A DNA stretch of 64,000 nt from Combretum micranthum (Eukaryota > Streptophyta > Magnoliopsida > Myrtales > Combretaceae): NCBI GenBank assembly GCA_024138025.1, contig JAMXBD010003383.1, positions 59,219 to 123,218 of the forward strand. The letters run 5' to 3'. Each line of letters begins with the position of its first letter. The first letter of the stretch is position 1. Of this stretch, positions 6,601 to 63,347 are shown piece by piece. A program made the translations under genes and the position numbers. The notes under the pieces were generated by a model. That model was not told where the DNA came from. It worked only from the letters and a program-made list of their open reading frames with translations, and made no database searches.

Positions 6601-7666
6601 ATTTTCGGAAATCGAAATTGTTGCTGCCCTAATCTGATCCGACCTTTTCGAAGCTTCAAAGTTTTCAGAACATGAAAATAATATTAGAAATAGATAGATC
6701 TTTCGAAGTAGATAGAAATCGATATATAATTTGCGAATTTCCAAGTTAAAACGACCAAGTTATAGCCGTTTTAAGTTGGAATTTCCGCTTAGGACGCGAA
6801 TTGCGAATTTGATAGTTTGAATGAGATAGTTTGGATTAGTTAAGTGATGAAATACTTATTAGAGTATTTCTTCCTTTTTAGGAGATCCCGAGATCGACGA
6901 TTCCCTGCCACTGAATTACTATTACTAGAAGACCAGTGATCCAATGGCTGAGTGAGTTTTCTCCTTGTTTTGTTACCTTGATTGTGCTTGTAGTTAGTTG
7001 CATTAGATTATAAGAACAAGATAAAAATCGATATGAATGGGGATGGGATATATGATAAGGCTGTGATGAATGTATGTCAAAGAATACTAAAGTATATCGA
7101 AACCACGATTTGATTGGATAACTGCACTGTTCATATTATTTATGTTATGTGTATGATATTGGCTGGTCACTCTAAAGAATGTATAAATATTTTGACCTAA
7201 GCAAAAAGTAAATTGATCATGCATCGCATCGGACATATTGCATTTGGTAGCATGCTACTCCTACGCAGGTCGATCGGTATGGTCCGAGGACTCGTTTGGA
7301 TAATGAGACCCGGGATCAGAGCTCATTCATAGGAAACTAAGGCGCATCGGGGATGCATTCCATGTGTGAGCTTAGCCGAGGCGAATGCTATGAACCGAGG
7401 GCTTGGGGACTAGTAGCAGTCGTGTAGACTTCAATACCATCCCTAACCCAAGATACGAAGGGAGTAAATCCGTTCTGTGTGTGGGTTCTGGATACTCATA
7501 CATAATTGCCTGCTCACGTGTTTGTTCATGCATAGTATATGATTGATTAATGCTTGCTTGTTATGGTACGGAACGAAGGGAATTCTCACTAAGCTAGTGT
7601 AGCTTATGCCCCAATAGTTGTTTAAATGAACATGTTATCTCAAGAATGCAAAGTGGGGACCGAATT

Positions 7667-10600
7667 TGTCACGCCCCAAAGGGTACCCTAAACGCGACAG
7701 TCCACCACACGCGATACTTAAACTTAAGTATGACCACCTTAGTCATCCCATGAGTTTACATATCGAGTGTAAGGTGTACTTTCACAACTATTAGGATCGC
7801 ACTTTGATTCGAGTAGTCTTAAGAAAGCATACATAGCATTAAGAATATAAATCACAACAAGATGAACAGTTAAACTTTACAAAAGCCAAGGGGGCATACC
7901 CCCGCAAAATAATAGGAGTCTACATCGTTTAGCTCCAATTACACAATATGAATTCACATTAAAGAGATTTTCCTAGAAGTCCACGCCTACACTAGGTCTC
8001 CGACTTCCTCAAAAGCTCTTTAATTCCATGTGATAAACCTGCACAAAAGTCCTCTCGGAACATCCAAAAATAGGAACACTGCAACAAAAACTGTTGGGGT
8101 ATAAGCTAATGCTTAGTGAGATTCATTTTCTTCAAGTAACATGCCCGACCAAGCTAAAATATCTATACAAGCAAGTTATAATTAAGCAACCATATGAATG
8201 CACAAGCATATGAGCAAACAAGCATATGACTTTCCGGTAGTCATAAGTGAATGAATTTACGCCCTCCATTCGGGGTTTGGGGTAGTTCATAAGTCATGCA
8301 ACTACAATTCCAATTTGGTCCATAAGACATGCAACCATTGTCCCAATCTTAAGTGGGGTGGTCCATAAGACATGCAACCACAATTTTTAATGTTGGTTCA
8401 TAAGTCATGCAACCATAGTTTCATTATTCGAATGGGGTGGTCCATAAGTCATGCGACCCTAGTCCCCTTTCATTAAAGACCCGCTGCCTCCTGAGTACAC
8501 CTTTGTCCCACCAAAGATATACTCGACAATGATATAAGACTCACTACGTGATATGCATGTACAGTTTATTCATATAATCATGACATTTTAGATAATTTAA
8601 AAGTGACCATACAATTTTCAGACATTCCAAATCTATAGTAGCTCACACAAGATTATTACAACAAAGCTTGCCTCGATATACTTATCGTTCATTCATGCAA
8701 GTTTAGATCACCATTCAAACACAATTTTATCTTTTCCTAAGTCTAATGCCACTACTACTACAAGCACATCCAAGAGCATAATTAATTGAGAAATGAACTC
8801 ACTTGTCCATGTAGTGAAAATCCACTAGTCGTAATAGTCCTCGGGAAGTGGTAACCCGTCCTCCAATTCACCTAAGTTCTATTAAACTTAACAATTTTTT
8901 TACTAAGTTCATCAATTTCCGTCTAGGTTGAATCCTTAACTTAAAAAGATCATATCTAACTCATTTTAACTCGGAATTTAGCTTATAATATACCGATTTA
9001 TACCTACTTCGAAAGAGCTATCTATTTCTAAAGTTAATTCAAACATTTAAGGTCATTTAAGGGTCGGAAACGTACTGTACAGTAGGGTTGCGAAAATTCC
9101 AGATTTGAGCCTTTGTGAAAAATTTGCTATATCTACTCTATTTAACTACTTAGACCAACTTATTTTAATCTAAACTTGCAAGGATCCTCAAAACAAAATT
9201 AAGAGATTACACACTTATCTAATACCAAACATAAAGTTCAAATGAAACTTCTAAGAATCCATTTTCATAAAACCGAAATTTACAAGTTGAAACTCATTGT
9301 TTTGTTTTGAGTAATTCCTTTACTAAAACTTACTTAGTTCAATGAAAATAATTTTCCTATATTATATATTAGCAAGCATTCCATTTTCAATATAAATACT
9401 TGTTTTGAGATCAAAAAGAAGGTTTTAAAATTGGTCTCCCATAATTACGAATTTCTCTTTGAAGTTTACAATGAATACAAGAACTAAATTTTGTCTTTTA
9501 CAAAACACTTGATTTAAGCTATACCTTTTAGGAAAACTCATTAAACTTATGAAAATTCATTCCTTAAGATATCTATACAAGAGCCCTTATATTTTTGTCT
9601 AAATCTTCATTTTAAAGTTAATGATGGGTTCCAAAAATAGGTCTTGGTCTTGATCCGAATTTTCATAAATTTATTTTGGACATATCTCTTGAGAAAATTC
9701 ATCAAAACTCATGAAAAACAACCCATTACATATTATATCCTAAGAACCCTTCATTTCTTGAATAAAATCCTCATTTTGAGTTGGAAAACATGTTTTTATT
9801 TTGGGTCTTTGTCTTGATCCGAAAATGAAATTTTTGTTTTTGAAAATCAACTTTGATTCTTGTAAGATGAAGCCTTGATGATATACATCCATCAAATCTT
9901 CATTTTCTTAACAAAAACTTCCATTTTAAGACTTGAAAGAGGGTTTTTAAAATAGGGCATTGACAAGTTACGAATTTTTCTTTTTCATTCCAACTTGAAT
10001 CTAAGATCTACTCAATATATAACCATGAAAGCATAAGAAAAACTTAGTAGTAGGCCTTAAACTTCTAGATCTACACATAAACATAATTAAAGCTTGATAA
10101 AACTCTAGATCTACAAGCTATCACAAAAACAAGAAGATAAACAAGCCTTCCATATAACAAAAATACTAAGAACAAAAGAGATCACCATCTAGAGGAGTGT
10201 TTCACTTCTTGGCATCATCATCCATAGCCTTTTAAGCTTGTGGAATGTCCTTTGATGCATGAAACATCCATGGTATCATCCTAGAACATCTTATAAGAGC
10301 AAAAAGGGAAAGATTACCTCAAATAATTGCAAGAAATATGTGGAAGCAAGAAAGAAAAATGGGGACAGCTTGTTTTCAAGAAGACAAGGCAAGGAAGAAG
10401 AGGAAAAAGAGGGAAAAAGAGAGAGGAAAAATATAGGGTTTACAAATATGAAAGAGGGAAGGAATGAGATGTTTACATAGAGTTTAAAGTGTGTTAAATA
10501 ATTTAAAAAAAAAAATAAAACAGCAGCTGTGCAAGGGAGGGGGCTGGCGTGATTTGTGAGTGTGGGGGAGTGTGTGTGGTTTGATTCCAATTTGTATTTT

Positions 10601-15063: not shown

Positions 15064-15160
15064 GTGACCCCGAGGAAGGATTCCTTTACCCGAGAATTAT
15101 TACGATTAAGTGGAGTGTGTGAACGACTCATCCGCTTAGAGGAATAGTCGACATGGCATT
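15064..15160 (+). other. predicted LTR mini-exon with start codon (C)
   Basis: Follows TTTTCTTTGGCTAG. The only ATG (15153-15155, context GACATGG) is 8 nt from the right edge. The donor that reads GTGAGT in most LTRs is ATGAGT here and also in D, so these two copies have probably lost it. The rest of the block is conserved with F. Confidence 0.4.
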
Positions 15161-17168: not shown

Positions 17169-17323
17169 AGAAGGTTCAAAAGCTAAGAAATAAGGAGATC
17201 TAATATGTCAAGGTATTATGGAGAAATCATTTGCAGGAGGAGACTACTTGGGAAGCCAAAGAGGAGATCCAAAAGAAATATCCGAATCTATTTGAAGAAT
17301 CAGGTACGAATTTCAAGTTTTGA
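17169..17323 (+). pseudogene. P1 chromodomain at the integrase C terminus
   Basis: After a TAG at 17168-17170 the same frame shows VLWRNH and ETTWEAKEEI, the core of the chromodomain that marks chromoviruses, and ends in FKF and TGA at 17321-17323. Chromodomains bind modified histone tails and steer integration to heterochromatin. Another stop interrupts the frame near 17201. Confidence 0.8.
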
Positions 17324-19749: not shown

Positions 19750-19844
19750 GTGATCCCGAGAAGGAGTATACATATTCGAAGGATTATTACGATTAGTGGA
19801 ATTCTCGATCGTCTCATCCATAAAAAAAGTGTCATCATGGCCAA
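19750..19844 (+). other. predicted LTR mini-exon with start codon (P1 3' LTR)
   Basis: 95 nt between TTCTTGATTAG and GTGAGT. The only ATG (19837-19839, context ATCATGG) is followed by 5 nt and then the donor, giving phase 2. Confidence 0.5.
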
Positions 19845-21068: not shown

Positions 21069-24000
21069 TGTCACGCCCCAAAGGGTACTCTAAACGTGAC
21101 AGTCTATCACACTCAATATTAAAGTATGACAACTTTAGCCATTCCCAAAATCTTTTATATTAAGTGTAAGGCGTACTTTCACAACTTTTAGAGGACCATA
21201 TATGGAATTATAAAGTTTAAGAAGATATAAATAACACATTTAAGAAAAGAGGATTCATAATAATTATTCATTCATATTAATGGCTTTACAAACTTAGGGG
21301 CATTTCCCTTGATCACTAATCTATTACATGGATATCTGTACATTAATACTAATACTACCTTTTATCTAAATTTCTATTATTCAAAAGAGATTACCTGCCC
21401 GCAGGGTCCTCGTGGCCTTAACCATAAGTAGGGAAACTGCAAAAGATATCTATCGAGGTATAAGCTAATAGGCTTAGTGAGAACTATTTCCATAAATAAC
21501 TTCTTGTAACGAAATTTCAAACAAGTTGATTAAACAAACAAATGTAATGCAACAAGCACGTGGGCAAACAAGCATATAGTTTTCTGGGAACTATATGTTG
21601 AATGGATTTACGCCCTCATTCAGGGTTTGGTGATACATAACCTCAATTAAGTAGTTTTAGTTAAAAAAAAGTTTTCATGCTCGCGAGCACTCATCGCCAA
21701 GCATTCTGAATCTACTTGATTGACCTTGCTTTCGGATCTTCTACCAAGCATTTTCCACTAAGCCGCCAAGCAATGCTTTCGGATCTCCCGCAAGTGTTGC
21801 TTTCGACATGAGCTTACTATCCTTCTCACCCAAGGATAATAACCCAAAATGCAATGTGACTCACTTCGTGGTGTGCATGAATTCATTAATTTATAAAGTC
21901 ATAGCATAATTATTTTTAAATTTAAAGCGATCAAGGAATTTCACACAAATCAATATTATACTAAAACAATCATTTAAAACAATTCCGGCTTCGATATTCT
22001 TAAAATTCTTTCAAAGAATTATTTTACATACATATCGATTTATCTTTTCCTAAATCTAATGCAACTAATTTACAAGCACAACAAGTATACATTTAATGGA
22101 AATAAACTCATGATGCCATCTCGACTATTCCTCTAAGCGGATGAGTCGTTCACACACTCCACTTAATCGTAATAATCCTCGGGGTAAAGGAATCCTTCCT
22201 CGGAGTCACCTAGCCAAAGAAAATACCCATAATAAGTATTTCTTAATGATTTTCTTGAGATTTGACAAAACAATGTCAAAAGAACGTTAAAGTTCGTATA
22301 AAGGAATGTTCCAACTTAAAATGGCCATAACTTGGTCATTTTAACTTAGAATCACGCATATAATATACCGATTTCTACCTACTCGAAAAGATCTACCCAT
22401 TTCTAAAAAACAAAGTCATATAGGCTCCGAAACAGTGGCGACAAAGTTCACCACAAATTTTTCAACACAAAACAACTTTGGTTCAAGAAATCAAAATTTG
22501 CTTGATAAATACTTAGTTATCTATATAGTGGAAAATTCTCTTTTTATAACTATATAGCTCATATTTAAGCATGCTCAAGTGTTTTGTTGTCCAATTATTT
22601 TTCTTGGGTAAAATAATGTTGGAAAAATATAGTTTTCAAAAATTGTTTTTGTAGATTTCTTGAAATGAATACCTTGTTTCCTTTTGTTTTCTAGAAAGGC
22701 TTTACGTTGGTTTTATTATTTTTCCTAAGTAACTTTTTGAAAATAGATTTTCTATTTTCTAAGTTTCTACTATTTTAAAAAATACACTATTCTTCCTATT
22801 TATTTTTCTTGTACAAATTTCCTTTGTTTATTTGTTTACAAAATCTTCTTTTGAAAATTTCTCATTCTCATGTCTTATGTTTTTCATAAAAATCATCCAT
22901 GCATAGAAATTTATTTTCTTGAAAAAAAAAACAAGTAGATCAATATGTGACTTAAGAAACCTTTTTATAGTAAAATAGTTTCTAAAATTTTAGTGGTTTC
23001 TTCTTGTAACTTGAAAAGAAATAACTTTATTTTTGTTTTCAAACCATAGATTTTCTTTGCTATTTATTTGTAAAGGTCTTTTACTTGAAAATTCCTTGGA
23101 CATTCATCTTGCTCATCTTTTTATAAAAAGAACCATTTTTGTATCAACAAATATTTTCTTTTGAAAAACAAAGTGGAATAATAAAGGTTTAAGTAGCTTT
23201 TTAAAGTAAAAGTAGTTTCCAAAATTATAGTGAGTTATCTTTGTAACTTGAAAAGGAATGAGTTTATTTTTGTTATCTTATATATTTTATACTTTACATA
23301 AACTTATCTCTAAGTGACAAAATTCTTCTTTTGTTTAGTTATTTTTAGAAATTAAAATTTTTGGACAACAATCTAAATGAACATGATTATGAGAATAATA
23401 ATAAACAAAATATATGAAACGTAAATAATAAAGTCAAGTATTGGAGTTTAGCTTTTTCAAGGCTCCCGGGACTAAGAAGTAGACTAGTCCCAAAACAAAA
23501 TAAAATGTAAGAAAGAAAAACTTGTTTTGACTTGATGAGGACAAGTCTAAGACTAGGCTAGTCTTATTCCAAAAAGAAATAAATAAATAAATTGCAATGG
23601 AATAAATAAATAAATTGCATTGCATGAAATAAATAAATTGCAAGTGAGCTTATATGCTCTAAAGAATATGTATATATATATAGATAATAATATTTTAACA
23701 ATAACATAACCATAAATGGATTGGCATGAACAAGAACAATTCATGAACATAATGTAGTTTCCATAACTTGTAGTCTTTGGAAACTCACACTATGGTTATG
23801 TAAAGTTATATGACATGAAGAAGAAGAAATTAAAAGAAAGTAGTTACCTAAAGGAGACTTTGTTATGGTTATGTAGTTATGGTTTTTGTTGTTGGTGGAA
23901 GTTGTTGTGGAATTATTTTGAAGAGTTTTGAGAGGAGATTTTGGAAGAATTTTGGTATGAATTTGTGGGTAGTGAATGTGTGAAAGAAGTGAAAGAGGAG

Positions 24001-27692: not shown

Positions 27693-27700
27693 TATAAATA
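27693..27700 (+). promoter_or_regulatory. TATA box of E 5' LTR
   Basis: TATAAATA in the shared TTTTCCTATAAATACCCC setting. The corresponding site in E's 3' LTR is TATCAATA. Confidence 0.6.
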
Positions 27701-28093
27701 CCCCCTCTTCCTTCCAATTCTTTCACAACTTCCATACACTAAAATTACTCTCCAAAAATCTCTCCACAAACTCTCTCAAGTTTCTCTAGTTTCTACTTCT
27801 TCTCTAGGTAATAGTTTTAGCTTTCTAAAGTGTTCATTTACTTAGTATGAGCTTAATGTGTGTTTTCTAAATCATGAAGGTTAAAGAAAGCAATAATAAG
27901 TTCATACTTTGTTTTTGTTCATGGATCTAATTTCTTTATGTTGCCTTTATATATATGTTACTAAATATATCTATGTAGCTATATATATATATATATATCC
28001 TTTAGAGAATATAAGCTCATTTGTTTTGCAATTTATTTACTTTCCTTGCAATTCATTTATTTCCTTGTAATTTATTTATTTTCATGTTATCTT

Positions 28094-28180
28094 TAAGACT
28101 AGTCTTTCTAGTCTTAGACTTGTCCTCATCAAGTCAAAACATTTTCTTTTTCTTTATGGGACTAGTCTATTCTTAGTCCC
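28094..28180 (+). other. triple stem-loop cassette (E 5' LTR)
   Basis: TAAGACTAG/CTAGTCTTA with a 5-nt loop (28094-28116), GACTTG/CAAGTC (28117-28135), GGGACTA/TAGTCCC (28158-28180). Arms match those of LTR C while the first loop differs in length and sequence. Confidence 0.6.
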
Positions 28181-28918
28181 GATATCTTGATGAAGCTAAG
28201 GTTCCAATACTTGATTTATTTCTTTACTAGCTTATTCTTTTAAGTTATTATGTTTCCTTATGTTTTCATAATTTTATGATTCATATTCATGCATGAACAT
28301 AATGATTTTTGTCTCAACAAAATAAATGAGGAAAGGTTTTCTTAAAACAAAGATTCTTTTCTAGAAATAAAAGTAGGAAGTAATTTTCTTAAACAAACTT
28401 TTCTAAGAAATCTAGAGGAGTTCTTAAACATACATAGAAGGAACTTTTTGAGTAAATAAAAGTTTTACTAAAACTTCACTTTTTCATCAAGTACTAGAAA
28501 TTCTTTTCATGAAAATGGAATGATCTCAAGAAATAAGGAAATTATTTCTATAAATATAGAATTGTTATTACTTTAAAAAAGTGTTAGAAACTAAGCTTAG
28601 AAAATAAAAATCATTCCTTAGAAACTTAAAAAGACTACGGAAATTAAATTTAGGAAAATAAAATACTTATTTGAAATAACTTAAGATATTTTCAAAACAA
28701 AATAAAAAGGAATTTCTCAAAAGTTCTCAGTTTCCAAAATCTTTAATAGACTTTACTTTTTTATGGTTTGAGACAACTTCATTAAATTCATACATTTTGA
28801 TATGAGTCAAAATATATGTATATACATTTCAAAGGTTTGATAAACTATTATAATATCTATCTCTTCAAAATGAGCTTTTGTTAAAAGAAGGAATTCAAGT
28901 TTGTGACAATTCGTGGTG

Positions 28919-31900
28919 TGTAAACCCCCAAATTTTTGGAATCGGTTTAACATAAAACCCTAAACCGGAAGTCAAACAGAACCCTAGAAGGTCAACAAAA
29001 CCCTAGTTTTCCGTAACCAATTAAATCCAGCATTGCCGTTTTCTTTGGCCCTGGAAAACGAAGTTGGAATAATTTGTTAGAATAGTTCGTAATAGCTATA
29101 GGTTATATAAAAACATCAGTTTTGCGGATTTCGGGTGTCCTTTGAACCCGATCGCACATAGTTCTCGAAAAATATGTCCGGGAGATCGGAATAGGAAAAA
29201 TATTCTGAATACACCGTTAGACTCGTAAAAATATAAGTTTTCCAAAAAATATCAGTTTCATAATTTTTCGGTAGCTAAAAATAACAGATATAGCTATTAT
29301 ATACGTATTTCTTACTACCGGTATTTTATTAGTCATATCTACTTTACATTACAATATTCATTACTACTCTACACTATTCTTTTATCTCTACTTTTTCTTA
29401 CACCTATTCTTACATACTCCATAACCTATAATCTTTACTTTTTACCTTTCCCATAACTTTATTTCACATCTACCTTACACATTACATCTTTTATTTAACA
29501 AAAATAAAAAAAATAAAATCTCCTCTCTCTCCCCATCAATGTGGCCGGCACCCTCTCCCCTCTCTTCCTCATCAATTTGTTTCAATTTTCTTTTATTTTA
29601 ATCACACAAAAATCCCTCCACAATTTCCTACAAATACCCCCCTCCTCTTTCACTTCTTTCACACATTTACTACCCACAAATTTCTTACCAAAACTCTCTC
29701 AATTTCTCCTCTCAAAACTCTCTCAAAATAATTCCACAACAACTTCTACCAACAAACCAAAACCCATAACCACATAACCATACCAAAGTCTTCTTTAGGT
29801 AACCACTCCATATTACTTTCTTCTTCTTCATGTCATGTAACTTTACATGACCATAGTATGAGTTTCCAAAGACTACAAGTTATGGAAGCTACATTATGTT
29901 CATATATTGTTCTTATTCATGCAAATCCATTTATGTTTATGTTGTTATTTTTGCTTTTATTATTGTTAATATATCTAAGTATTATTATCTATATATATAC
30001 ATATTCTTTAGAGCATATAAGCTCACTTGCAATTTATTTAGTCCATGCAAAGCAATTCAATTATTTATTTATTCCATTGTAATTTATTATTTATTCCTTG
30101 TTAAATTAAGACTAGTCTCTAGTCTTAGACTTGTCCTCATCAAGTCAAAACAAGTTTTCTTTCTTTCATTTTATTTTGGGACTAGTCTACTTCTTAGTCC
30201 AGGGAGCGTTGAAAAAATCTAAGACTCCAATACTTGACTCTATTACTTATGTTATTTTATTTGCTAGTATTATCTCATAGTTCATGTTTATTTAAATTGT
30301 TGTCCAAAGTTTCAAGTTCTAAACATAATTGACAAAAAGGAGATTTTTGACACTTAAAATAAGTTTATGTAAAGAAGAAAATCTATGGTTTAAAAGCAAA
30401 AATAAAGTTATCTCTTTTCAAGTTACAAGAAAAAACTATTAAGATTTTAGAAACTACTTTACTATAAAAAGTTCTTAAGTCACATATTATTCACTTTGTT
30501 TTATCAAGAAAATAAACTTTTAGGAATGGATGATTTCTATAAGCATGAGAAAAGAATGAGAAATTTTCAAGTAAAGATTTTGCAAACAAATAGACAAAGA
30601 AATTTGTACAAGAAAAATAAATAGTGTATTTTCTAAAAACTCCAAAATAGTATTAGAACAGGAAACTTAGAAAATAGAAAAATTTAATTTTACTTGGGAA
30701 AAATAATGAAACCAACATAAAGCATTTTTAGAAAACAAAGGAAACAATATATTCATTTCAAGAAATTTACAAAAACAATTTTTGAAAACTATATTTTTGT
30801 AAAAACTTTAAACCGACATTGTTTTATTCAAGAAAAATAATTGGACAACAAAACACTTGAGCATGCTTAAATATGAGTTATATAGATATAAAAAGAAAAA
30901 TTTTCAACTATATAGATAATTAAGTATTTATCAAACAAATTTTGATTTCTTGAACCAAGGTTGTTTTGTGTTAGAAAATTCGTGGTGAACTTTGTCGCCA
31001 CTGTTTCGGGCCCTAAATGATGTAGTTTAACAAAAATAGTTTTGGAAATGGGTAGACCTTCTTGACTAGTAGAAATCGGTATATTATATGCGCGATTCCG
31101 AGTTAAAATGACCAAGTTATGGCCATTTTAAGTTGGAACATTCCTTTATATGAACTTTAACGTTCTTTTGACATTGTTTTGTCAAATTTCAAGAAAATCA
31201 TCAAGGTATACTCATTGTGGGTATTTTCTTTGGCTACGTGACCCCGAGGATTATTACGACTAAGTGGAGTGTGTGAACGACTCATCCACCTAGAGGAATA
31301 GTCGACATGGCATCGTGAGTTTATTTCCATTAAATGCTATACTTGTTGTGCTTGTAAATTAGTTGCATTTTAATTAGGAAAAGATAAATCGATATGTATG
31401 AAAATAATTCTTTGAAAGAATTTTAAGAATATCAGAGCCGGAATTGTTTTAAATGTTTGTTTTAGTATAACATTTGATTTGTATGAAATCCCTTGATCGC
31501 CTTAAATTCAAAAATAATTATGCTATGACTTTATAAATAAATGAATTCATGCATACCACAAAGTGAGTCACATTGCATTTTGGGTTATTATCCTTGGGTG
31601 AGAAGGATAGTAAGCTCATGTTAAAAGCAACCCTTGGCGGGAGATTCGAAAGCGATTGCTTAGCGGCTTAAGGGAAATGCTTGGCAGAAGATCCGAAAGT
31701 AAGGTCAAATCAAGTAGATTCGGAATGCTTGGCAATGAGTGCTCGTAAGCTTAAAACTTTTTAATTAAAACTACTTGTTTTGAGGATAAGTATCACCAAA
31801 CCCCGAATGAGGGCGCAAATCCATTCAACATATAGTTCTCGGAAAACTATATGCTTGTTTGCCCACGTGTTTGTTGCATTACATTTGATTGTTTAAACAA

Positions 31901-32221
31901 CTTGTTTGAAATCTCGTTACAAGAAGTTATTTATGGAAATAATTCTCACTAAGCCTATTAGCTTATACCCCTATAGATATCTTTTGCAGTTTCCCTACTT
32001 ATGGTTAAGGCCACGAGGGCCCTGCGGGCAAGTAATTTCTTTTAGATAAAAGAATTCTAAGATGAAGTTTAGAATTGGAGATCATGTACAAATGTCTTGT
32101 AATAGATTAGTGATAAAAGGGAAATATCCCTAAGTTTGTAAAACCATTGCTATGAATAAATGTTTATTATGAATCCTCTTTTCTTAATATGTTTTTATAT
32201 CTCCTTAAGCTTCATAATTCC
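28919..32221 (+). mobile_element. LTR F, 3'-truncated, nested in E 5' LTR
   Basis: Starts TGTAAACCCCC and follows LTR C closely to AATTCC at 32216-32221, where the sequence switches to the host LTR E. About 0.1 kb of F's end and about 0.1 kb of E are missing compared with intact copies. AATTCC occurs at the breakpoint in both parents, so a deletion at 6-bp microhomology is likely. Its TATA site reads TACAAATA. Mini-exon donor GTGAGT (31315) is kept but the acceptor is TAC instead of TAG. The 42-nt block is 31990-32031. The frames at 29541-30222 are leader and AT-rich readings. Confidence 0.88.
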
Positions 32222-32361
32222 GAGTTAAAATGAGCAAGTTATAGCCATTTTAAGTTGGAATTTCCTCCAATCCGAATTTATCGCAATTTTAAGATAGATT
32301 TAGAGTTTTGAAGAATAGAAATTCTATGAAAGACTCATTGTAGGTATTTCATCTTGTTTAG

Positions 32362-32424
32362 GTAAAGGAGGAACCGAGATCACATTCCCGGAAGACTACT
32401 TCGATTAGGAGCTACTGACATGGA
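32362..32424 (+). other. predicted LTR mini-exon with start codon (E 5' LTR)
   Basis: 63 nt between CATCTTGTTTAG and GTGAGT. The single ATG (32420-32422, context GACATGG) is followed by two bases and then the donor, so it leaves phase 2 like the 8-nt versions in other LTRs. Joining it to 35002, directly or through the 42-nt block, is in frame with gag. Confidence 0.5.
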
Positions 32425-33049
32425 GTGAGTTAATCCTTTACTAATTTACATTTCTTTGTGTATGCTTATAGGTAGTAGCATTAGAAGATAAGGAAAAGAT
32501 AAAATTATTGTGTGATTTGAATTTATGATTGGTTGAATATAAGTTAAGATTATCGAAAGAGGAATTGATAATTAAATTGTGATTCTTGCATTGATATGAT
32601 GAATATTGTATTTTATCACCTTTAACTTGAACTCAACATTAACTGGTTAAATTTATATCGAAAATAATTCATGCATATCATATTTGAGTCGCATTTGTTT
32701 CACTACTATTCTTCGTGTGGGGAAACGAGGTAGTAGTGGTGGCTAGCAGGAGCCGAAAAGTCTACATAGGCCAGTAGGAGCCGAAAAGTCTACAGGGCGA
32801 GCAGGAGCCAGCAAATCTACAAGTATTGATGGTCGTATGGGCTTGTAACCTCCCATCCCTCGACATGGAGGGCGTAAAATCCATGCTATACATGATTTCC
32901 GGTTAATCTTGTGTATTTTATTTGCTCATGTGTTTGGTGCATTTTCATATGATTGTTTAAATACTTGTTTGATTTATGGAAATGTCTTGTAGATGGGAAT
33001 TATCTCACTAAGCTAGATTTGCTTATACCCTTATAACTTTTTGTTACAG

Positions 33050-33091
33050 TATAATTATCTTTGGTTGGCATCGAGGAGCCCCATATGCCAG
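33050..33091 (+). other. predicted 42-nt LTR exon 2 (E 5' LTR)
   Basis: Follows TTTTTGTTACAG with CTCACTAAGC about 45 nt upstream, and precedes GTATGAG. Unlike in subfamily C it is open in the phase delivered by the mini-exon. The same block in the 3' LTR is 42716-42757. Confidence 0.45.
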
Positions 33092-33465
33092 GTATGAGCC
33101 AAAGCCACTAGGAGTTTTAAACATAGACTTCTAAGAAAATCTCTATAGTAGGCTTATGTTATAGTTATGTTTACTTTGTTAATGGTTTAGTTGAATCAAG
33201 ACCATTTAAGACGGGGGAATGCCCCTAAGATGATGTAAGAGTTTGTTGTTTAAATGAAGATTTCATATTTATTTATATAAGTTCTTGCTTGCTTTTATTA
33301 TCTACTTAAATGTAATGCCCTTGTGAGTCTCCTACTATCTTGGAAGCATGCTTTGTATGTGAAATCGAAGCTCCTGCATGACTAAGGTTATCATTCATTA
33401 GCTTTAATATTATATGCGGCGGACTGCCAAGTTTAGGGTACCCTCCGGGACGTGATAGTTTAAGT

Positions 33466-33477
33466 TAGTATCAGAGT
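33466..33477 (+). other. E primer-binding site (degenerate)
   Basis: TAGTATCAGAGT, 8 nt after the LTR end. It differs at two positions from TGGTATCAGAGC, the usual plant gypsy site pairing with the 3' end of initiator methionine tRNA. Confidence 0.75.
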
Positions 33478-33597
33478 GCAAGTTTTAGATAAAAGATAGT
33501 AGAAATAGACTTTAAGATAGATAGTAAGAAGTTAGAACTTAAGCTTAAGATCTGATCCTCTTCTTGTTCTATTTGATAGCTAACCTTCCTCAAAGTA

Positions 33598-34626
33598 ATG
33601 GAAAAATCCCGAAATTTCCTTAAGAACCCAAATGAGACCTTTGTGAACTACCGCCTTAGGTTGAGAGTCTTGTGTGAAGAATTTGTATTAGTTGGAAGAC
33701 CTCGAACCGCCCGAGAAATGTTTAAGTTGTGGAGAAAAGGTTTGAAACATTCCTTATGGAGAAACTTGCCCGAAGAACTAAGATTCGACCGTAAGCAGAC
33801 GAAGGTGGAGTGATGTGGAGGTAATTTATGTGGTGGAAAGGATTATGGTTTTTATGTATGGAGAGACCGTATTGCAAGAGATGACCTTTATCTTAAAGGC
33901 GGAAGGAATCTGAACGGACCCAGACTTTCGAACCTGAACAAGTTAGGACCCCTCTACATCTATGCGCATGATGAGCTGGCAGACCACACGACTGGTTGAG
34001 AGCTGATGCGAAGGAACTTTTCTACTGGTATGCCGCATACAGACGTATTGTCCCCATGGCGTTGGAATGTAGTACCCGACCAAACTCCATCGAAATGCAG
34101 CTGGATGTAATCCCAGATGACGATTTCATCATGGAAGATGCCCAAAGGAATGAAGGAAATGGAGAGATAGAAGGTGACCCTGAAGAAGACCCCGACGAAG
34201 ACCCAAAACCTGAGGAAACTCCATCTGCATCTCTTTGGGAAGACAGTCCCCTAATTCCAAGTCCGGTACCTCCCCGGAGGTTAAGCTAGGATGTTCCCAT
34301 GGAGACAGTTGCAAGAAACAACCCTGTGATGATCTTTGACTCAGAGGAAGAAGGAAGGAGAGATAACCCGCAATGGAGGAATGCTTTTGAACCAAATGGA
34401 TTTTTGAGGAGCAGGTCTCAAACCCCTACCATAGCAGTGGCCCCTGAAGGAGGAAACCAAGAAGGATAGGAGGCAACAAACGACACCACCCAAGGAGAAA
34501 GGATTTCTATGCACGAAGAAATATGGCCATCTCAGGTAGAGATCACCTCGAGGTACAGAGGAAAGAGGATGACCGTAAGTCAGTATCTGCGACAGTTTGT
34601 CAAGAGGCAAAAAGGTTCCTCTAGCT
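33598..34626 (+). pseudogene. extra ORF upstream of gag in E, function unknown
   Basis: About 340 codons in sense orientation between the primer site and gag. The first 72 codons from ATG 33598 read without a stop, then a frameshift near 33810 moves the reading; it is disturbed again before 33990, after which one frame runs 33996-34626 with only two TAG codons (34287, 34467), each explicable as CAG to TAG. The N-terminal part (NETFVNYRLRLRVLCEEF, then MFKLWRKGL) resembles the C-terminal half of a capsid domain in layout. The middle is strongly acidic (runs of E, D and P near codons 45-75 of the second frame) and the tail is basic. I do not recognise the family. Ogre/Tat elements carry an ORF before gag, but chromoviruses normally do not. 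Confidence 0.6.
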
Positions 34627-35001
34627 AGAGCATGAACCTAGCACGATCACCTTGAGGAAGGGAAGATTGAGGAAGGAAGAAGTGAAGAAGATGAGTCTAG
34701 CAAAGCCTTTTTCCTAAGATAAGGATAGGCATATCCTTGCTTGAAATGAATGTTTTTGCTTTTAATGATTATGTTTTAAGTATTTCCTTTTCTAAACAAC
34801 TATCTTTTGCTGAGAATGGTCTTAACCTTCTCAAGACTATGTAAGGGTTACCACCCTCTTCTGTTTTAATGAAAAGTACCTTGTGTTGATAATGATTTTT
34901 GATTTGATTGCCTTAAATATTTCTTGTGCAAATTCCGATATTTCCTATCTTTTTCCCCTTTATAAAGTTTTATGAAGTCTAAAATAAGAATAAATTAACA
35001 G
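34627..35001 (+). other. non-coding spacer before E gag, ending in an acceptor-like site
   Basis: No coding potential seen. It holds a pyrimidine-rich run near 34945-34965 and ends TTAACAG, directly before the first codons of gag. No ATG opens the gag frame here. Confidence 0.5.
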
Positions 35002-36360
35002 ACGAGGTAGGAGAGGTAGGAGACGTGAATGTCATGCAACTAATAATGTCCCAGCTGAGCCAGAAAATCCATCAACAGGCCAACAAGCGGCACCACCAAA
35101 TCCCCTACAAAACCAACAAGGCAACGTTTGGGCTGCGATCAACTAACTAGTTGGTCTAGTCAATAACTTTATGCATCATGCACAGAACATGCCACCACCA
35201 GCTGCCAATGCACCAGAAGCAACATTTGAGGCACCAACACCACCAGAAGCTAAATCTCAGAGTGTTCCTTTACCATCACCACCACCACCTTGACCTTACC
35301 GAAGTTCCTTGCCTGACTTGATCAAAAGTAATCGATACTTTGATGGGAGTTTCGGAAAGCTAGATGAAGCGGAGGACTGGCTAGCACAGATAGAAAGATC
35401 GTTTGTTGCATATGAAGTGCTCCATCACCTTCGTTTAGATTATGGCACTTATATGTTAAGATTCAACGCCAGAGTCTGGTGGGAATCTAAAAGTAGAGAA
35501 TTGCTACCATCGGTGACTTGGGCAACCTTCAGAAGGGAGTTTTTGGAGAATTATTTTCCTGGAAGCTTGAGAGTACAATATAGTGGAGATTCCTTCACAT
35601 ATCTCAGAAAGGAAGGACAGTAGAACAATACAAGACTAAGTTTAGTTGTCTACTCTAGTATGCGCCGGAATCCTTTAGGCACAGTGAAGAGCTAAGAGGC
35701 AAGTCTTCTTAAGTGGCCTGGACGAGGACTTGAGGATGCGTCTGGAGGAGTTGGATCTAAGGACCCTCCGTGAATTGGTTGAAAGGGCCCGCATTATAGA
35801 AGGAGCCAAGAAGAGGAAAAGTAAAGCACCTGAGAAGAGAACCTTTGTTCGAAAAAAGGACTCAAGATAGTTACAGTCCCAGTTTTCAGAACAAGAAGTT
35901 TAAACCCTTCAACAATTATAGAGGAAGTGCTAGTGATAACAAGGAGGAATCAAAGGTCAAAGTGACATGCTGGAAATGTAAAGAGGAACATTATCCGAAG
36001 AGATGCCCTTTGCTTCAATACAAATGCTATTTTTGTGGAGACCCTAGCCACAAGATCAGTGACTGCCCAAAGAAGGCTTCTACCGTTTGTTTTGTATGCA
36101 AGCGAACTAGGCATTTCACCAATGAATGCCCACAAAGAAAGAATGCCCCAGCTAGACCGTTTGGTTCAATGGGAGGAGCTACATCGATGAAGAATGGAAG
36201 TGGAGGGAGCAACTCGAGCCGTTCTGGAGCAGCTGTGCATGGGATGAGAATTTACAACTTGGAAGGGCAGTGGGTATGTGAAGAGTCGGACTATGAAGGA
36301 GCTGAGTTAGCAGCCGTGGATGGAAATTGTGGCCCAGATTTTGTACTGGTGACAAGTTAG
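35002..36360 (+). pseudogene. E gag: capsid and three zinc knuckles
   Basis: Structural protein that packages the element RNA into cytoplasmic particles. It begins with an arginine/glycine-rich stretch in a frame lacking its own ATG, then a proline-rich region, the capsid (DEAEDWLAQIERSF, VTWATFRREFLENYF), and from about 35969 three CCHC knuckles: CWKCKEEHYPKRC (C-x2-C-x3-H-x4-C, one residue short), CYFCGDPSHKISDC and CFVCKRTRHFTNEC. Stops at 35144-35146 (CAA to TAA) and before 35309, and frameshifts at 35590-35845, make it non-functional. Three knuckles are more than the one usual for this clade. Confidence 0.88.
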
Positions 36361-36480
36361 AATCAGAAACTCCTTTACCTTTGATGCAAGTTATCAAGTA
36401 CCTGTATTAAATTCTTAATCTAGAAGTCGAAAGTTTTGTACCAGCAAATAGCTTAAGTATACCAATTTCAAGATTAGTAT

Positions 36481-38299: not shown

Positions 38300-39869
38300 T
38301 TGCTTACTCACAGATAAGAAGGAGCTAATCAAGGAATTTGAAAAGATGAGTATAGAATTCATAAGGGCAAAATGTAGAAGCAGAAATCGCCAGCCTAGTC
38401 ATGGAACCCACCTTAGTGGAAAAATCAAAGAAGCCCAACAATATGACGAGGCAATTTAGAAGATTAAGGGAGAGGTACAAGAAGGAAAATACACCGATTT
38501 TATGATAGATGAAGATGAAGTGGTGAGAAAAACGAAGACTATGCTCCAGATGATGAGGATATGAGGAAAAATCATGAATGAATCAGATGATGAGGATATG
38601 AGGAAGGAAATCATGAATGAAGCACACCATTCAGGATATACCATGCATCCAGGAGGAACTAAAATGTACTAGGACCTGAAGAGCCACTATTGGTGGAACA
38701 GTATGAAGAGAGACGTGGCCGATTTTGTGATGAAATGTCCCACATGCCAACAAGTGAAGTAACACCAAAGACCTGGAGGACTTTTGAAACTGCTGCCGAT
38801 ACCTAAATGGAAATGGATCAAATCACAATGGATTTTGTGTTTGGATTACCAAAACACTACAAGATATGATGCTATTTGGGTCATAATGGACCAATTGACA
38901 AAGATAGCACATTTCCTTCCAATCAACACGACATACTCCATGGATAAGTTGGCAAGAATATACATAAGGGAAATAGTATGCTTGCATGGAGTGCCAGCTG
39001 GAATAGTCTCTAACCGAGATCCAAGGTTTGTGTCTAAATTTTGGACAGCTTACAAAGATGTATGGGAAACAAAGTACACTTCAGTACCGCATATCACCCC
39101 CAAACAGATGATCAGTCGGAGAGACGATACAAACTTTGGAAGATAGTTGTAAGCTTGTGTGATAGAGTTAAAGGGTAGTTGGGACGCACACCTACCTTTG
39201 GTAGAGTTTTCCTACAACAACAGCTACCACTCACAACCCAGATGCCACTTATTAAGCGTTGTATGGAAGACAATGTCAATCACCTTTATTTTGGGACGAT
39301 GTAGCGAAGTTGAGTATTGGACCCGACTGTACAAATGCGGCTGATAAGGTACAGGTCATTCAACACAAGATGAAAAAAGCACAGGATCTATGAAAAGTTG
39401 GGCAGATACGAAAAGGCGAATACTCGAATTTGAGGTTGGAGACCATGTGTATTTGAAGATAAACCCCAACAAAGTATTCACATGTTCGAACACAAGGAAA
39501 GTTGAGCCCACGATATATTGGACCTTTTGAGTACTTGAAAGAGTAGGAGAACTTGCCTATCGATGGCCCTATCTTCTAACCTATCAGGAATTCATAATGT
39601 ATTTCACGTATCGGTTTTATGGAAGCATGTTGCCATATCCTAAAGACTCACAGAGCTAAACCAGTCTAGTTAAAAGAAATCTCACATACAAGGAGCACCC
39701 GATTCAATCCTAGGTCATAAGGTGCAAAAGCTTCGGAACAAGGAGATCAAGTATGTAAAGGTTTTATGGAGAAATCACTCACATGGAGAAGCAACCTGGG
39801 AGGCCAAAGTGACATACGCCAGAAGTACCCAAAGTTGTTTGAGGAATCAGGTATGAACTTCAAGTTTTA
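38300..39869 (+). pseudogene. E integrase with chromodomain
   Basis: The N-terminal zinc domain is visible around 38620-38760 (CPTCQQVK), with a duplicated short piece near 38545-38610 containing ATGATGAGGATATGAGGAA twice. Core: [15 protein letters not shown], where the second catalytic aspartate of S-D-R-D is asparagine; a frameshift just upstream removes the normal reading of the first. The C-terminal part and the chromodomain (KVLWRNHSHGEATWEAK) run to FKF and TAA at about 39869. Clearly inactive. Confidence 0.88.
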
Positions 39870-39898: not shown

Positions 39899-42800
39899 TA
39901 TAAACTCCTAAGTTTTGAGATTAATTTAAGCTTAAAACCTAATTAGAAAGTCAACCGGAATCCTTAAGTCAACAAAACCCTAGTCCTTTGCAACCGTTCA
40001 AGTCTGGCATTCCCGTTTAAGCAACCCTAGGAAAGTTAGTAAGAGTTTAGTATGTAGAATAGTTCGTAATAACCTGAGAAAGCTTAAAAATATCAGATTA
40101 GTCAAACCGCGATTCGTTTTGAGCACAACTGGACACATTCTCAAAAAGCGTGTTCCGAGGCTCGGTTAGTTAAAAATATTCCGAATATACCATTAGACTC
40201 GTAAAAAATAATTTTTCAAAAATATCAATTTCATAATTTTTCGGTAACTAAAAAAATCATATATCATAATTATACGCGTATTTCTTACTACCGGTACTTA
40301 AATTGTCATGTCTACTTTATATACACTATTTTCTACTATTCTACACTATTCATCTATCTCTATTTTTTCTTACTCTTACAAACCATACCTCTATTTCTTA
40401 CAAATTTCATTTCCAATAAAACATCACATCTTTCATATCTTACTTTCATTAACAAAATACAAAAAAATAAATTTTTCTTCCCCTTTACCCCAAAATTGCA
40501 CCACCCCCCCCCCCCCCCCCCCCCCCCCCTCCCCTCTTCTTTTTCCTCTAAATTTTTTATTTTTCATGTATTTAATTAACACAAAATTTCTCCCACATTT
40601 TCCTATCAATACCTCATTTTCTTCCACTTCTTTCACAACTTCCATAAGCTAAAATTACTCTCCAAAATCTCTCCACAAACCTCTCAAGTTTCTCTAGTTT
40701 CTACTTCTTCTCTAGTAATAGTTTTAGCTTTCTGAAGTGTTCATTTACTTAGTATGAGCTTAGTGGTGTTTTCTAAACCATGAAGGTTAAAGAAAGCAAC
40801 AATAAATTTATACTTTGTTTTTGTTCATGGATCTGATTTCTTTATGTTGCTTTTATATATATGTTACTAAATATATAATGTAAGCTATATATAATATATA
40901 TATCTTTTAGAGCATATAAGCTCATTTGTTTTGCAATTTAATTTACTTTCCTTGCAATTTATTTATTCATGTTATCTTTAAGACTAGTCTTCTAGTCTTA
41001 GACTTATTCTCATCAAGTCAAAACATTTTCTTTTTCTTATGGGACTAGTCTATTCTTAGTCCCGAGATATCTTAATGAAGCTAAGGTTCCAATACTTGAT
41101 TTATTCTTTACTAGCTTATTCTTTTAAGTTATTATGTTTCCTTATGTTTTCATAACTTTATGATTCATATTTATGCATAACATAATGATTTTGTCTCAAC
41201 AAATAAATGAGGAAAGGTTTTCTTAAAATAAAGATTCTTTTCTAGAAATAAAAGTAGGAAGTAATTTTCTAAACAAACTTTCTAAGAAATCAGAGGAGTT
41301 CTTAAACATATATAGAAAGGAACTTTTTGAGTAAATAAAAGTTTTGCTAAAACTTCACTTTTTCATCAATACTAGAAATTCTTTTCATGAAAATGGAATG
41401 ATCTCAAGAAAAAGGAAATTATTTCTATAAATATAGAATTGTTATTACTTTAAAAAAGTGTTAGAAACTAAGCTTAGAAAATAAAAACATTCCTTAGAAA
41501 CTTAAAAAGACTACGGAAATTAAATTTAGGAAAATAAAATACTTATTTGAAATAACTTAAGATATTTTCAAAACAAAATAAAAAGGAATTTTCTCAAAAG
41601 TTCTCATTTCCAAAATCTTTAATAGACTTTACTTTTTTATGGTTTGAGACAACTTCATTAAATTCATACATTTGATATGAGTTAATAAATATATGTATAT
41701 ACATTTTAAAGGTTTTACAAACTATTATAATATCTATCTCTTCAAAATGAGCTTTTGTTAAAAGTAAGAATTCAAGTTTGCGACAATTCGTAGTGAAGAT
41801 GCCCACCACTTTTTTAGAACCCAAACAACTTACTTTGATGAAAATAGTTTTAAAAATAGATAGATCTTTTCGAATAGGTAGAAAAGGTATATAATATGCG
41901 AATTCCGAGTTAAAATGAGCAAGTTATGGCCATTTTAAATTGAATTTCTTTCAATCCGATTTTATTGCGATTTTAAGATAGATTTAGAGTTTTTCAAGAA
42001 TAGAAATTCTATGAAACTCATTGTGGGTATTTCATCTTGTTTAGTGAAGGAGGAACCGAGATCACATTCTCGAAAGACTACTTCAATTAGGAGCTACCGA
42101 CATGGAATGAGTTAAACCTTTACTAAGTCATTTCCTTGTGTGTGCTTGTAGATTGTAGCACTAGAAGATAAGGAAAAATAAAATTATTGTGTGGTTTGAA
42201 TTTATATTGGTTGAATATATTTAAGAATAACAAAAGAGGAATTGATAATAAATTGTGATTCTTGCATTGATATGATAATATTGTTTTTTGCTCACCTTTA
42301 ATTTGAACTCAACATTAACTGGTTAAATTATATCGAAAATAATTCATCCATATCATATTTATAAGTCGCATTTATTTCACTACATTCTTCATGTAGGGAA
42401 AAAGGAAGTAGTAGTGGCGGCTAGTAGGAGGCAGAAAGTCTACATGGGCCAGTAGGACCAAATCTACAGGGCGAGCAAAGCCAGTAAATCTGCAAGTATT
42501 AATGGTCGTATGGCCTGTAGCCTCCAACCCTCGACATAGAGGGCAAAAATCCATGCTACACATGATTTTCGATTAACTTGTGTATTTGTTTGCTCATGTG
42601 TTTGGTGCATTTTCATATGATTGTTTAAATACTTGTTTGATTTATGGAAATCTTGTAGATGGGAATTATCTCACTAAGCTAGATTTGCTTATACCCTTAT
42701 AGCTTTTTGTTACAGTATGATTATCTTTGGTTGGCACCGAGGAGCCCCATATGCCAGGTATGAGCCAAAGCCACTAGGAGTTTTTGGGAGAAGTTATATG

Positions 42801-53138: not shown

Positions 53139-55288
53139 CTGGGAATACAAATATCTATAGGGGTGTAAGCTTATGGGCTTAGTGAGTAAATCCCAAAATT
53201 CATACCCGTATAAAATTTATCAATCAAGTTTATTATTCAAACATATAAAATGCAACAACCACGTGAGCATACAAGACATATGACTTTCCGGGAATCATAT
53301 GTTGAATGAATTTACGCCCTTCATTCGGGGTTGGGGATTCAGGCCAATTACAGCCACAACTTTTAAAAGCACTTTTACAGATCTTACCGGCTCCTATACG
53401 CCATCAAAAACTTGTAGTTATTACAAGCTCCTACTAGCCACCAATTTTGTAGTTCTTATCGGCTCCTACTCGCCACTTACATGATATACTGGTTATGTCT
53501 ACCACCACTATTATACACTTGTCCCACCAATTGTATAGTAGCGAATGCAATGTGACTCAACATATGAATTGCATGAATAATTTCTTTAATTAAAGTCTAG
53601 TAGTTACATTTAACTTCTTTCAAGTGATCAATCAATTTCAAACATTTCAAGATATTAATTCACATACAACTTTATTACAAACAAATCGAGTTTCGATATA
53701 CTTAGTATTCTTTCAACGTATTATCATACACTTTCTTTTGATTTTTCTTAAATTCTAGTGCAACTAATTCTACAAGCACAATCAAAAGTATGAAAAAAAC
53801 GGGGAATAAACTCACTCGGCCATGATGACACCGTTCTTGAATCGGATGGGTCGTTCGGAAATTCCACTTAATCGTAGTAATCCTCGGGATACGGACAATC
53901 CTCCTCGTGATTATCTAATCAAGAAGAATACCCAAAATGAGTATTTCATGAAATTCTATCCTTGAAGATTCTAATCTTTTCTTAAAATCGTAGTAAAATC
54001 GTATAAGGGGAAATTCCAACTTAAAATGGCCATAACTTGCTCATTTTAACTCTGAATTTCGCGTATTATATATCGTTTTCTACCTACTCGAAAAGATCTA
54101 CGCATTTCTAAGCTTATTTTCATAAAACTAAGTCGTTTGGGTTCCAAAAAGATGGCGACCAGATTTTCCACGAATTTTGCAAACACTTGTTTTCTTCTTT
54201 GTAAACAAAGCCCTTTTGAAAAGATAAATATTTCAATTATTTTGTAAACTTTTGAAAGGTCTATATATTTGTAATGACTCATAACATATGTATGAAGTAA
54301 ATGAAGTTGTCTCAACTTATAAAAGTAACGTTTTAAAAGATTTTGAACTTGAGATTCTATTGAATATTTATTTTACTTTTGAAAGATCTTTTAGTTATTT
54401 AAGATGAATATTCCATTTCTAAATGAAATCTTTTGTAATTATTTTGATTTCTTAAAGTGTGGTCTTATTTTCTAAACTTGGATTTCAAAAGTAGCAAAAT
54501 GATATTTATTTCTTGTATGATTCCAAAAGAATCTCTACTTCTTGATAAAAGATAAGTTTTCATAAAATCTTTTGTTTATGTAAGAAAAACCATTCCCATA
54601 CATGGTCATGGGTTTTTAAGAAATTCATTTCTTTTAGAAAGAATCTTTAATTCAAGAAACACTTTCTCATTTATTTTTGTTGAGACAAAAACATTATGTT
54701 CATGCATGAATATGAATCATAACTATAGAAATATAAAGGAACATAATAACTTGAAAGCTTAAATAAGTAAATCAAGTATTGGGACCTTAGCTTCATCAAG
54801 GTACCCTGGGACTAAGAAAAGACTAGTTCTGAAAAAGAAAAGAATTGTTTTGACTTGATGAGGACAAGTCTAAGACTAGAATGACTAGTCTTAAAATCAA
54901 CTTGAAATTAAATAACTTGAAATGAAGTAAATAAATTGCATGAAAGATAAATAAATTGTAAGACAATGAGCTTATATGCTCTAAATAATTATATAGCTAT
55001 ATAGATATATTAGATAGTAAAGAACATAAAGGAACATAAAGGGATTGATATTATGAACAAAAACAAAGTATGAATCTAATGTTGCTTTCCTAACCTTTAT
55101 GGTTTTAGAAAACACACACTAAGCTCATACTAAGTAAATGAACATGAAGAATTCTTGAGAAATTTCTTACCTAAAGAAGCTAAACTAAGAGGACCTCTTG
55201 GAAGAACTCTTGAAAGAATTTTGGGAGAGATTTTAGTATAGTAACTTTAGAGAAGAAGAAGTGTGAAAGAAGTGAAGGTATGAGGGGG

Positions 55289-56321: not shown

Positions 56322-56391
56322 TTGGCCATTGGATCACCGGTCTTCTAGTAATAATAATTCGGTGGCAGGGAATCGTTGATTTCGGGATCTC
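56322..56391 (-). other. predicted LTR mini-exon with start codon (H)
   Basis: 70 nt on the minus strand between CTTCCTTTTTAG and GTGAGT. The only ATG (56329-56327) leaves phase 2. The 5' LTR of the same element, which would drive gag, carries its copy beyond the window. Confidence 0.5.
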
Positions 56392-60711: not shown

Positions 60712-61973
60712 CTAACCTGATGTCGAGTTGCATATTTGATCCTTGCTTCCTCCCATGGCAAAGGACTCCAGCTCCTCATCACTAGCTTCTTCATACACTC
60801 CATATGTGTGAGGGTTGTGGACTAGATTTCCGGATGTAGATGTTCTTGAAGAACCTCGATTCCTTTTTCCTTTGTTGCTTTTATTCCTATTACATCTCCT
60901 CCTCTTCTTCCTTGGTTGATCCAGCGAAGCAATACGCAAGTTATCCTGTTCAGGGCATGTTTTAGCTAAATGTCCCGTTTTTGAGCAAAGAAAGCATGCG
61001 TTGTCGTCTTTTTGGGACACTTCTCAACTTTGTGACTGGGGTCCCCACAGAGGTAACACTTGGATTGAAGTCGTGGACACCGTATAGGGTAATGCTTCCC
61101 TTACATTTCCAACATTGTAGCTTATCCAATATGTCTTCTTCCTTGTTTGGGTCATCATCCAAGGGAAGTGTTCTGACATTTTGACTCGGGGTCATTGCAA
61201 CATAGAACTCCATTTCCTTATTACTTCTTTCTTGCCTCCTCCTTTGAGCATTTTCTATTATCCGTGCTCTTTCTAGCAATCCTTGATAACTCCTTGATAT
61301 CAAATTCCTCCAATCGAGTCCGAAGATCTTCTTTCAAACCATTCAGAAACACTTGTCTTTTGAGTTCCTCACTTTGTTTATATGATTCCGGAGCATATTG
61401 CAACAATCTACTGAACTCGGTTTCATATTGTTCCACACGATCTCCTTGTGAGATATTGAGGAAATCTGCACTGTACTGGACTCTTAAGCTCATGGGGAAA
61501 TATTTATCCAAAAACTCATATTTAAACATCTCCCATGTAACTGGAGGCGTCAACTCTCTTTCTTAGATTCCCACCATACTCGGGCATGTAAGCGAAGCAT
61601 ATAGGTCCATAATTGACTCTCAGACGGTGTGGTACTTCAAAAGCATTAAAGGACCTCTCAATGTGTGCCAACCAATCCTCTGCCTCATCTGGTTTTCCAA
61701 AAACTCGTCGAAATACTGGTTACACTTTATGAAGCATGGTAAGAGACTTTGGTGGTATTGAGGTGATGGGGCTCATCTTGCGTCGTTTCTTACATATCTT
61801 ATAGGTGTAGACGTTGAACTGACTTGAGTCTGTTGCATGTAGCTTCTTATCTGACTAGTAAGCCGTTCAATCTCTATTGAGGCATTTCCCCTTGGTTAGG
61901 TGGTTCAGGTATCGCTTGGTTCTCGGGTCCTAAAGGAGTCATGACGGGTTCTTGTTGTGGTTGGGTATATCTC
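60712..61973 (-). pseudogene. H/L gag copy 2: capsid plus three zinc knuckles
   Basis: The frame opens without ATG right after TTGTAG (61974), with a glutamine/proline-rich start, then the capsid (DEAEDWLAHIERSF; VTWEMFKYEFLDKYF; VEQYETEFSRLLQYAPES), and knuckles at about 61110-60950: CWKC disrupted by a one-base indel, CYLCGDPSHKVEKC and CFLCSKTGHLAKTC. A basic patch (RKKRRRCNRNKSNKGKRNR) and an acidic tail ending at 60712 follow. Stops near 61720 and 61560 and frameshifts near 61260 and 61080 break it. Closely related to E gag in order and motifs. Confidence 0.85.
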
Positions 61974-63340: not shown

Positions 63341-63347
63341 ACTAAAC

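Follow-up and report, generated by a model that had tools for sequence, protein, structure and literature searches.

Predicted splicing of LTR exons as a source of start codons in chromodomain Ty3/gypsy elements of Combretum micranthum

The stretch of DNA analysed here, which we call the window, comprises 64,000 nucleotides (nt) of contig JAMXBD010003383.1 from the plant Combretum micranthum (assembly GCA_024138025.1, 1.86 Gb; positions 59,219 to 123,218 of the forward strand). In this 64-kb window, with a GC content of 32.7%, chromodomain Ty3/gypsy elements are nested in one another. Their terminal repeats (LTRs) are very long, and our reading of a blastn self-comparison table gives eleven copies of them. 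The LTRs contain conserved splice-like sites, matching phases and coding constraint in the predicted frames. These patterns make it probable that the LTRs carry a short spliced gene head, giving a start codon to gag and to an additional open reading frame (ORF) between the primer-binding site (PBS) and gag (the 5'aORF), with pol probably ending in the second exon of the 3' LTR.

Open pieces in the window match RVP_2, RVT_1, RT_RNaseH and SH3_Tf2-1 above Pfam cut-offs. In the element designated E, the domain order is gag with a zinc knuckle, RVP_2, RVT_1 and RT_RNaseH; the latter three exceed the cut-off, and the Retrotrans_gag (17.9 bits) and zf-CCHC (16 bits) matches of E itself fall below it. 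The L gag (46.1 bits) and the zinc knuckles of the H ORF (33.9 bits), both on the minus strand, are over the cut-off. The arrangement that defines chromoviruses, an integrase with a C-terminal chromodomain, was found in the genomic relative L061 (L061:3-644), where the chromodomain PF00385 scores 31.9 bits (cut-off 25.1) and SH3_Tf2-1 scores 97.1 bits.

For comparison, a capsid search of the genome gave 19,226 first-look candidates, 150 of which were scored; the upstream stretches of 20 E-type copies were taken from these and, together with E, form a set of 21. Some E-type copies appear to be recent, because the starts of their 5' and 3' LTRs (~820-970 nt, compared in 6/8 copies) are 91-98% identical, one pair showing a single mismatch and 19 gaps. 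Copies L039-L058, young and otherwise nearly identical, contain many indels of one base, which may be assembly errors or decay. At G000:C3341 (~18345-36774) three E-type copies lie ~9 kb apart on one strand, possibly as a tandem array. A scan of IMG/VR with the reverse transcriptase returned 31 stretches and no relative.

Exons predicted in the LTRs and the ORF upstream of gag

Exon 2 is present in all eleven window LTRs, an initial annotation of this DNA having listed such a mini-exon in eight. In agreement with that annotation, the last ATG lies 8 nt (nine LTRs) or 5 nt (the two E LTRs) before the donor, and the phase from ATG to donor is 2 in 11/11. The donor, described there as GTGAGT, has this form in 8/11 and reads ATGAGT, with the GT lost, in K, P and the E 3' LTR. 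The AG acceptor is kept in 10/11 LTRs, the exception being the solo LTR that starts at 28919; in K and the E 3' LTR the exon frame is shifted by one base. Across the E-type set, E included, the acceptor and a GTGAGTT donor are each found in 21/21 copies, and phase 2 in 20 of the 21, the exception (L041) having a 1-bp deletion. Upstream of the ATG, exon 2 holds a second frame ending in a stop, treated below as a tail. The distance from the tail stop to the donor spans all three phases (23, 22, 48, 52 and 16 nt in A1, n8810, F, n53823 and E, counted by hand), and despite this variation the ATG stays 5 or 8 nt from the donor. Shortly before exon 2, intron 1 contains a ~40-nt block, TTCCGAGTTAAAATGACCAAGTTATGGCCATTTTAAGTTGGAA, with an inverted repeat (window positions 31095-31138 and 32217-32260, and homologues), which is well conserved in 10 of the 11 LTRs and weaker in n8810.

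The putative exon 1 of E-type copies lies downstream of the TATA box and ends at TTTAG/GTAA (the slash marks the predicted cut). With its start taken as TATA+30, it contains no ATG in any of the 15 copies, out of 21, in which this could be measured; this zero contrasts with ~21 and ~38 ATG per kb in introns 1 and 2 of the E-type copies. An ATG-free leader as a general feature was rejected, since the A-type LTRs A1 and B and the LTR of L068 carry ATGs in the presumed exon 1.

Coding constraint was expressed as a protein-similarity z-score obtained by column permutation in each frame. The control consisted of 45-nt windows free of gaps, taken from introns 1 and 2 of the E type, and their 66 frames gave a mean of -0.14, a standard deviation of 0.93 and a maximum of 2.15, compared with 3.64-5.98 in the predicted frames. 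The copies are related and do not provide independent counts. We place most weight on frame-specific constraint between diverged LTR families.

Such constraint is clearest in exon 3, a 55-nt segment downstream of exon 2 whose acceptor is CTTATAG in 20/21 E-type copies, E itself having AA for AG. Read from the LTR ATG, exon 3 encodes [FY]LLQ..YLWL.PR.P..Q in both the E and K families, the same residues being written with different codons. In this frame z is 4.05 for seven E-type copies and 5.98 for six E-type plus two K-type copies, with other frames at or below 1.18. The ATG frame was matched in 0/2000 permutations, although bare permutation counts of this kind overstate the case, because 2 of 20 control windows reached p<=1/300 when calibrated more crudely, on columns joined over gaps. 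The initial annotation had taken 33050-33091 as a 42-nt block that could be included in frame on the way to gag. This cassette was rejected: its boundary is wrong, it is the 3' part of exon 3, a stop interrupts its ATG frame in the K type, and the exon leads in phase to the 5'aORF and not to gag. Inspection by eye noticed no further exon between exons 2 and 3. Before exon 3 (window 33000-33036 and homologues), the aligned LTR families share a conserved CTCACTAAG followed by GCTTATACCC, possibly a branch site and acceptor.

The 5'aORF begins in phase 0 after TTGATAG with LT[FI]PEVKEK, and its first residue is encoded by four different leucine codons among E-type copies. The z-score of this start in phase 0 is 4.5 (six copies). 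An in-frame ATG occurs there in E only (33598, by substitution), and the other ten of the 11 copies compared have none. Since exon 3 ends in phase 0 and the 5'aORF starts in phase 0, the LTR ATG, exon 3 and the 5'aORF share one frame. It is thus very likely that spliced LTR exons supply the start codon of the 5'aORF, which would be the best-supported target of the LTR ATG via exon 3, gag being one further predicted target. The original proposal of LTR introns that deliver a start codon to gag fares well as to the LTR exons, which are supported by frame constraint, and less well as to the best target. Judging from its pieces, the 5'aORF has ~350 codons in E-type elements and is broken in the copies examined. 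The pieces match no Pfam or NCBIfam family above the cut-off, and the idea that they represent a second capsid was rejected, hhalign finding nothing (probability 0.3 on a 0-100 scale, E 0.21).

Several observations count against this interpretation of the LTRs. In the sites themselves, E's own exon-3 acceptor and the exon-2 donor of its 3' LTR are mutated, exon 3 is exactly 55 nt and followed by GT in only 11 of the 20 E-type copies (the other nine have small indels), and L039 has a stop in the last codon of exon 3. A filter for 75 open codons from the 5'aORF acceptor was passed by only 5 of the 21 copies. The ATGs in the presumed exon 1 of A1, B and L068 belong here as well, A2 and n8810 having none, as does the result that no TATA motif was found among the five LTRs examined that are A-type or n8810. 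On the side of method, the exon-3 acceptor was picked after the frame had been seen, the test sets are selected diverged, ungapped copies, the control windows cover the E type and not the mixed-family sets, and the cruder calibration gave the excess noted above. Given that many copies are close relatives and their counts are not independent, one could regard the LTR sites as chance or as non-functional signals inherited from a few ancestors. We consider this highly improbable, because frame-specific constraint is seen between LTR families whose divergence leaves some of them only partly alignable, and the E-type intron controls never rise above z 2.15.

Table 1. Predicted exons and other features of the window (coordinates in the 64,000-nt stretch)
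Feature	Position	Strand	Remarks
Exon 1 (5' untranslated region), E 5' LTR	27724..27807	+	5' end set at ~TATA+30, unmapped; donor CTCTAG/GTAAT
Exon 2, E 5' LTR	32362..32424	+	tail frame G..PEDYFD-TAG, stop 32406-32408; ATG 32420; donor GTGAGT 32425
Exon 3, E	33037..33091	+	55 nt; entered in phase 2, left in phase 0; acceptor CTTATAA, for CTTATAG in relatives
5'aORF of E, decayed	33580..34625	+	starts after TTTGATAG, phase 0; between PBS and gag
E gag, decayed	35002..36357	+	acceptor AACAG/A, phase 2
End of E pol, after chromodomain region	39844..39850	+	GAATCAG; putative donor GTATGA at 39851, phase 1
Exon 2, E 3' LTR	42045..42106	+	one base lost after acceptor; donor changed to ATGAGT
Exon 2, LTR A1	2464..2533	+	
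Exon 2, LTR A2	6882..6951	+	
Exon 2, minus-strand LTR at 8064-11169	8803..8871	-	
Exon 2, LTR K	15064..15160	+	donor mutated, tail frame broken
Exon 2, LTR F	19750..19844	+	
Exon 2, LTR P	22112..22209	-	donor mutated
Exon 2 region, solo LTR 28919-32215	31217..31314	+	acceptor lost, internal deletion
Exon 2, minus-strand LTR at 52734-55997	53816..53914	-	
Exon 2, LTR B	56322..56391	-	
End of F-element pol	17297..17303	+	GAATCAG; putative donor GTACGA at 17304, phase 1
TATA box, E 5' LTR	27693..27699	+	TATAAAT; aligns with TATA-like motifs of non-A-type LTRs
K-type solo LTR	28919..32215	+	inserted in E 5' LTR, inside E intron 1; self-blastn
E PBS	33465..33478	+	inside predicted last intron; presumably a match to initiator tRNA-Met
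L gag, decayed	60715..61973	-	acceptor TTGTAG/G, phase 2
H ORF, broken here	62309..62834	-	small zinc-knuckle ORF upstream of L gag, same element; acceptor TTTCTAG/G, phase 2
3' end of A-type LTR preceding H and L	63348..63997	-	PBS at 63341

The start of gag

The gag-side acceptors of E, H and L lie where the initial annotation had placed them (starts at 35002, 62834 and 61973), and all are in phase 2, so that two bases are needed from upstream. AACAG precedes gag in 21/21 E-type copies, and E-type gag is coding right from the acceptor (z = 3.64, six copies). A protein search with the start of E gag yielded 895 candidates, none at E<=0.001. H and L had been described as separate gag copies. 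They prove to be consecutive ORFs of one element type: in L068 both follow the same A-type LTR within one element, again with phase-2 acceptors, and H is intact there. The extra small ORF that thus precedes gag in A-type elements has three CCHC knuckles and no capsid (L068 ~873-1362 on the minus strand; window 62309-62834).

These phases and the constraint at the start of gag make it likely that the LTR start codon also reaches gag by splicing. The competing view is that only the 5'aORF draws on the LTR ATG, through exons 2 and 3, and that gag is translated from unspliced RNA, from a local or internal ATG. In its favour, the frame evidence for exon 3 and the 5'aORF is the strongest we have. 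An ATG before gag, which the initial annotation had named as something to look for in relatives, occurs in frame in 15 of the 21 E-type copies, at a distance of 21-36 codons upstream. H and L in turn have an early internal in-frame ATG, at codon 7 and codon 11 beyond the split codon, so a local start is possible for both, and the earlier description of gag as lacking an ATG suits the E type better than these two.

Nevertheless, the upstream ATGs scatter over six codon distances, which makes an unspliced start less likely; the position -31 is common to ten near-identical young copies, and six copies of the 21 have no such ATG. E-type gag, although coding from its acceptor, reaches no Met until about codon 55 in the better copies. 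For L-type gag, in-frame stops lie at most five codons upstream of the acceptor in 10 of 13 stretches; of the remaining three, L077, L078 and L067, the first lacks an ATG as far back as a stop 17 codons upstream, and the second is a chimera in this region. Together with the shared phase 2 of the three acceptors, these observations lead us to consider a gag that dispenses with the LTR start codon unlikely.

A probable second coding use of exon 2

Beyond anything in the initial annotation, exon 2 appears to be coding in a second frame. Upstream of the ATG it reads G(D/E)..PEDY(Y/F)D-stop; the A type has DYYY/NYYY-stop instead, and the distance between acceptor and stop is preserved. This tail frame is unbroken in 8 of the 11 window LTRs, the exceptions being K, the solo LTR and the E 3' LTR. 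Of 11 genomic copies tested, 9 also have it unbroken, L052 having lost the stop and L056 being broken. Its z-scores are 3.76-4.94 in sets of seven, six and ten copies, and those of the other frames do not exceed 1.35. For the tail frame, the exon-2 acceptor is in phase 1. Just after the pol chromodomain, a phase-1 donor, GAATCAG/GTA[CT]GA, is found in E, in F and in 6 of 8 stretches from relatives; in the other two the donor motif is missing, and nothing matches their 5' LTR.

Because the tail-frame acceptor and the pol donor are both in phase 1, exon 2 may end pol in the 3' LTR, and on balance we think it probable that pol gains a PEDY[YF]D tail by splicing to exon 2 of that LTR. The tail frame might instead be the end of another protein, or a relic. 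No reading across the pol-tail junction was seen, and unspliced pol has a stop nearby, five codons past the putative donor and before the LTR, which also speaks against our proposal. Set against these points are the agreement in phase just after the chromodomain and the constraint on the tail frame across the LTR families examined, and we regard an origin of the tail outside pol as doubtful, though a serious alternative.

The scheme we favour would operate as follows. The 5' LTR would contribute an untranslated exon 1 and then exon 2, whose start codon is followed by only 2 or 5 nt more before the exon ends in phase 2. In E-type elements exon 2 would be joined to the 55-nt exon 3 and on to the 5'aORF, or straight to the acceptor of gag; in the A type its partner would be either the H ORF or gag. 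At the other end, the donor after the pol chromodomain would be joined to exon 2 of the 3' LTR in the other frame, adding PEDY[YF]D and a stop. Spliced RNA would then be the mRNA and unspliced RNA the genome, splicing separating the two because the removed introns contain the PBS. Splicing itself, the use of the LTR ATG by gag and the assignment of the tail to pol are what we infer from sequence. We lean towards the complete combination, in which one LTR exon serves in two frames: its 5' copy would, by alternative splicing, supply the start codon either for gag-pol or, through a second LTR exon, for the 5'aORF, its 3' copy would provide the C-terminal tail and stop of pol, and the PBS would be spliced off.

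If this is correct, these are LTR retroelements whose protein synthesis depends on LTR exons, and in which one repeated exon both opens and closes the coding region. Such an arrangement would explain gag and 5'aORF frames that have no start codons, account for how 5'aORFs are expressed, and offer a simple means by which a plant element could keep the RNA that it translates apart from the RNA that it reverse-transcribes. Solo LTRs would be ready-made promoter-plus-start-codon exons near host genes.

Comparison with known elements

Among the open-access matches listed, titles and the opening lines of abstracts name no LTR-borne gag start exon, subscription papers falling outside this scope; use of one LTR exon at both ends of an element is likewise unnamed among the open-access matches listed. 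A lead to an intron in yeast Tyl6 gave nothing usable in the part of the source available.

The closest counterparts in organization are chromoviruses of the Tekay clade with a 5'aORF, which are of the same element type, have a chromodomain and carry an extra ORF of similar size 5' of gag-pol (~400 amino acids, compared with ~350 codons here); they include sunflower Tekay group 2 and relatives in maize, sorghum and rice (PMC11728184). The words intron, spliced and splicing are absent from the main text of that paper, and its accessible portion does not state how the 5'aORFs are translated. In the Combretum elements, neither the 5'aORF nor gag has a conserved ATG of its own, and both would draw on an LTR exon.

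The centromeric elements of CRM group A resemble the proposed 3' end in that their pol coding region also ends inside the 3' LTR (PMC3059260). In that group pol extends directly into the LTR, the accessible text using none of the words spliced, splicing or intron, whereas pol here is not continuous into the 3' LTR and would reach the LTR exon only by splicing. Diaspora, an Athila-type element of soybean, likewise has a long LTR, in which splice donors were predicted, and an extended leader ahead of gag; the available part of its description says that introns upstream of gag had not been reported (PMC1142308).

Ogre, BARE1, EVADE and CRR are plant LTR elements that also splice their transcripts, but in the descriptions available their introns lie between or within the gag-pol ORFs, not in the LTR, and supply no start codon. 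Among retroviruses, HTLV and BLV have their major splice donor in R and translate gag from unspliced RNA, and MMTV sag and HIV nef are genes located in the LTR. Thus, splicing from R and coding within the LTR are features that these viruses and the Combretum elements would have in common, a likeness for which we claim no shared ancestry.

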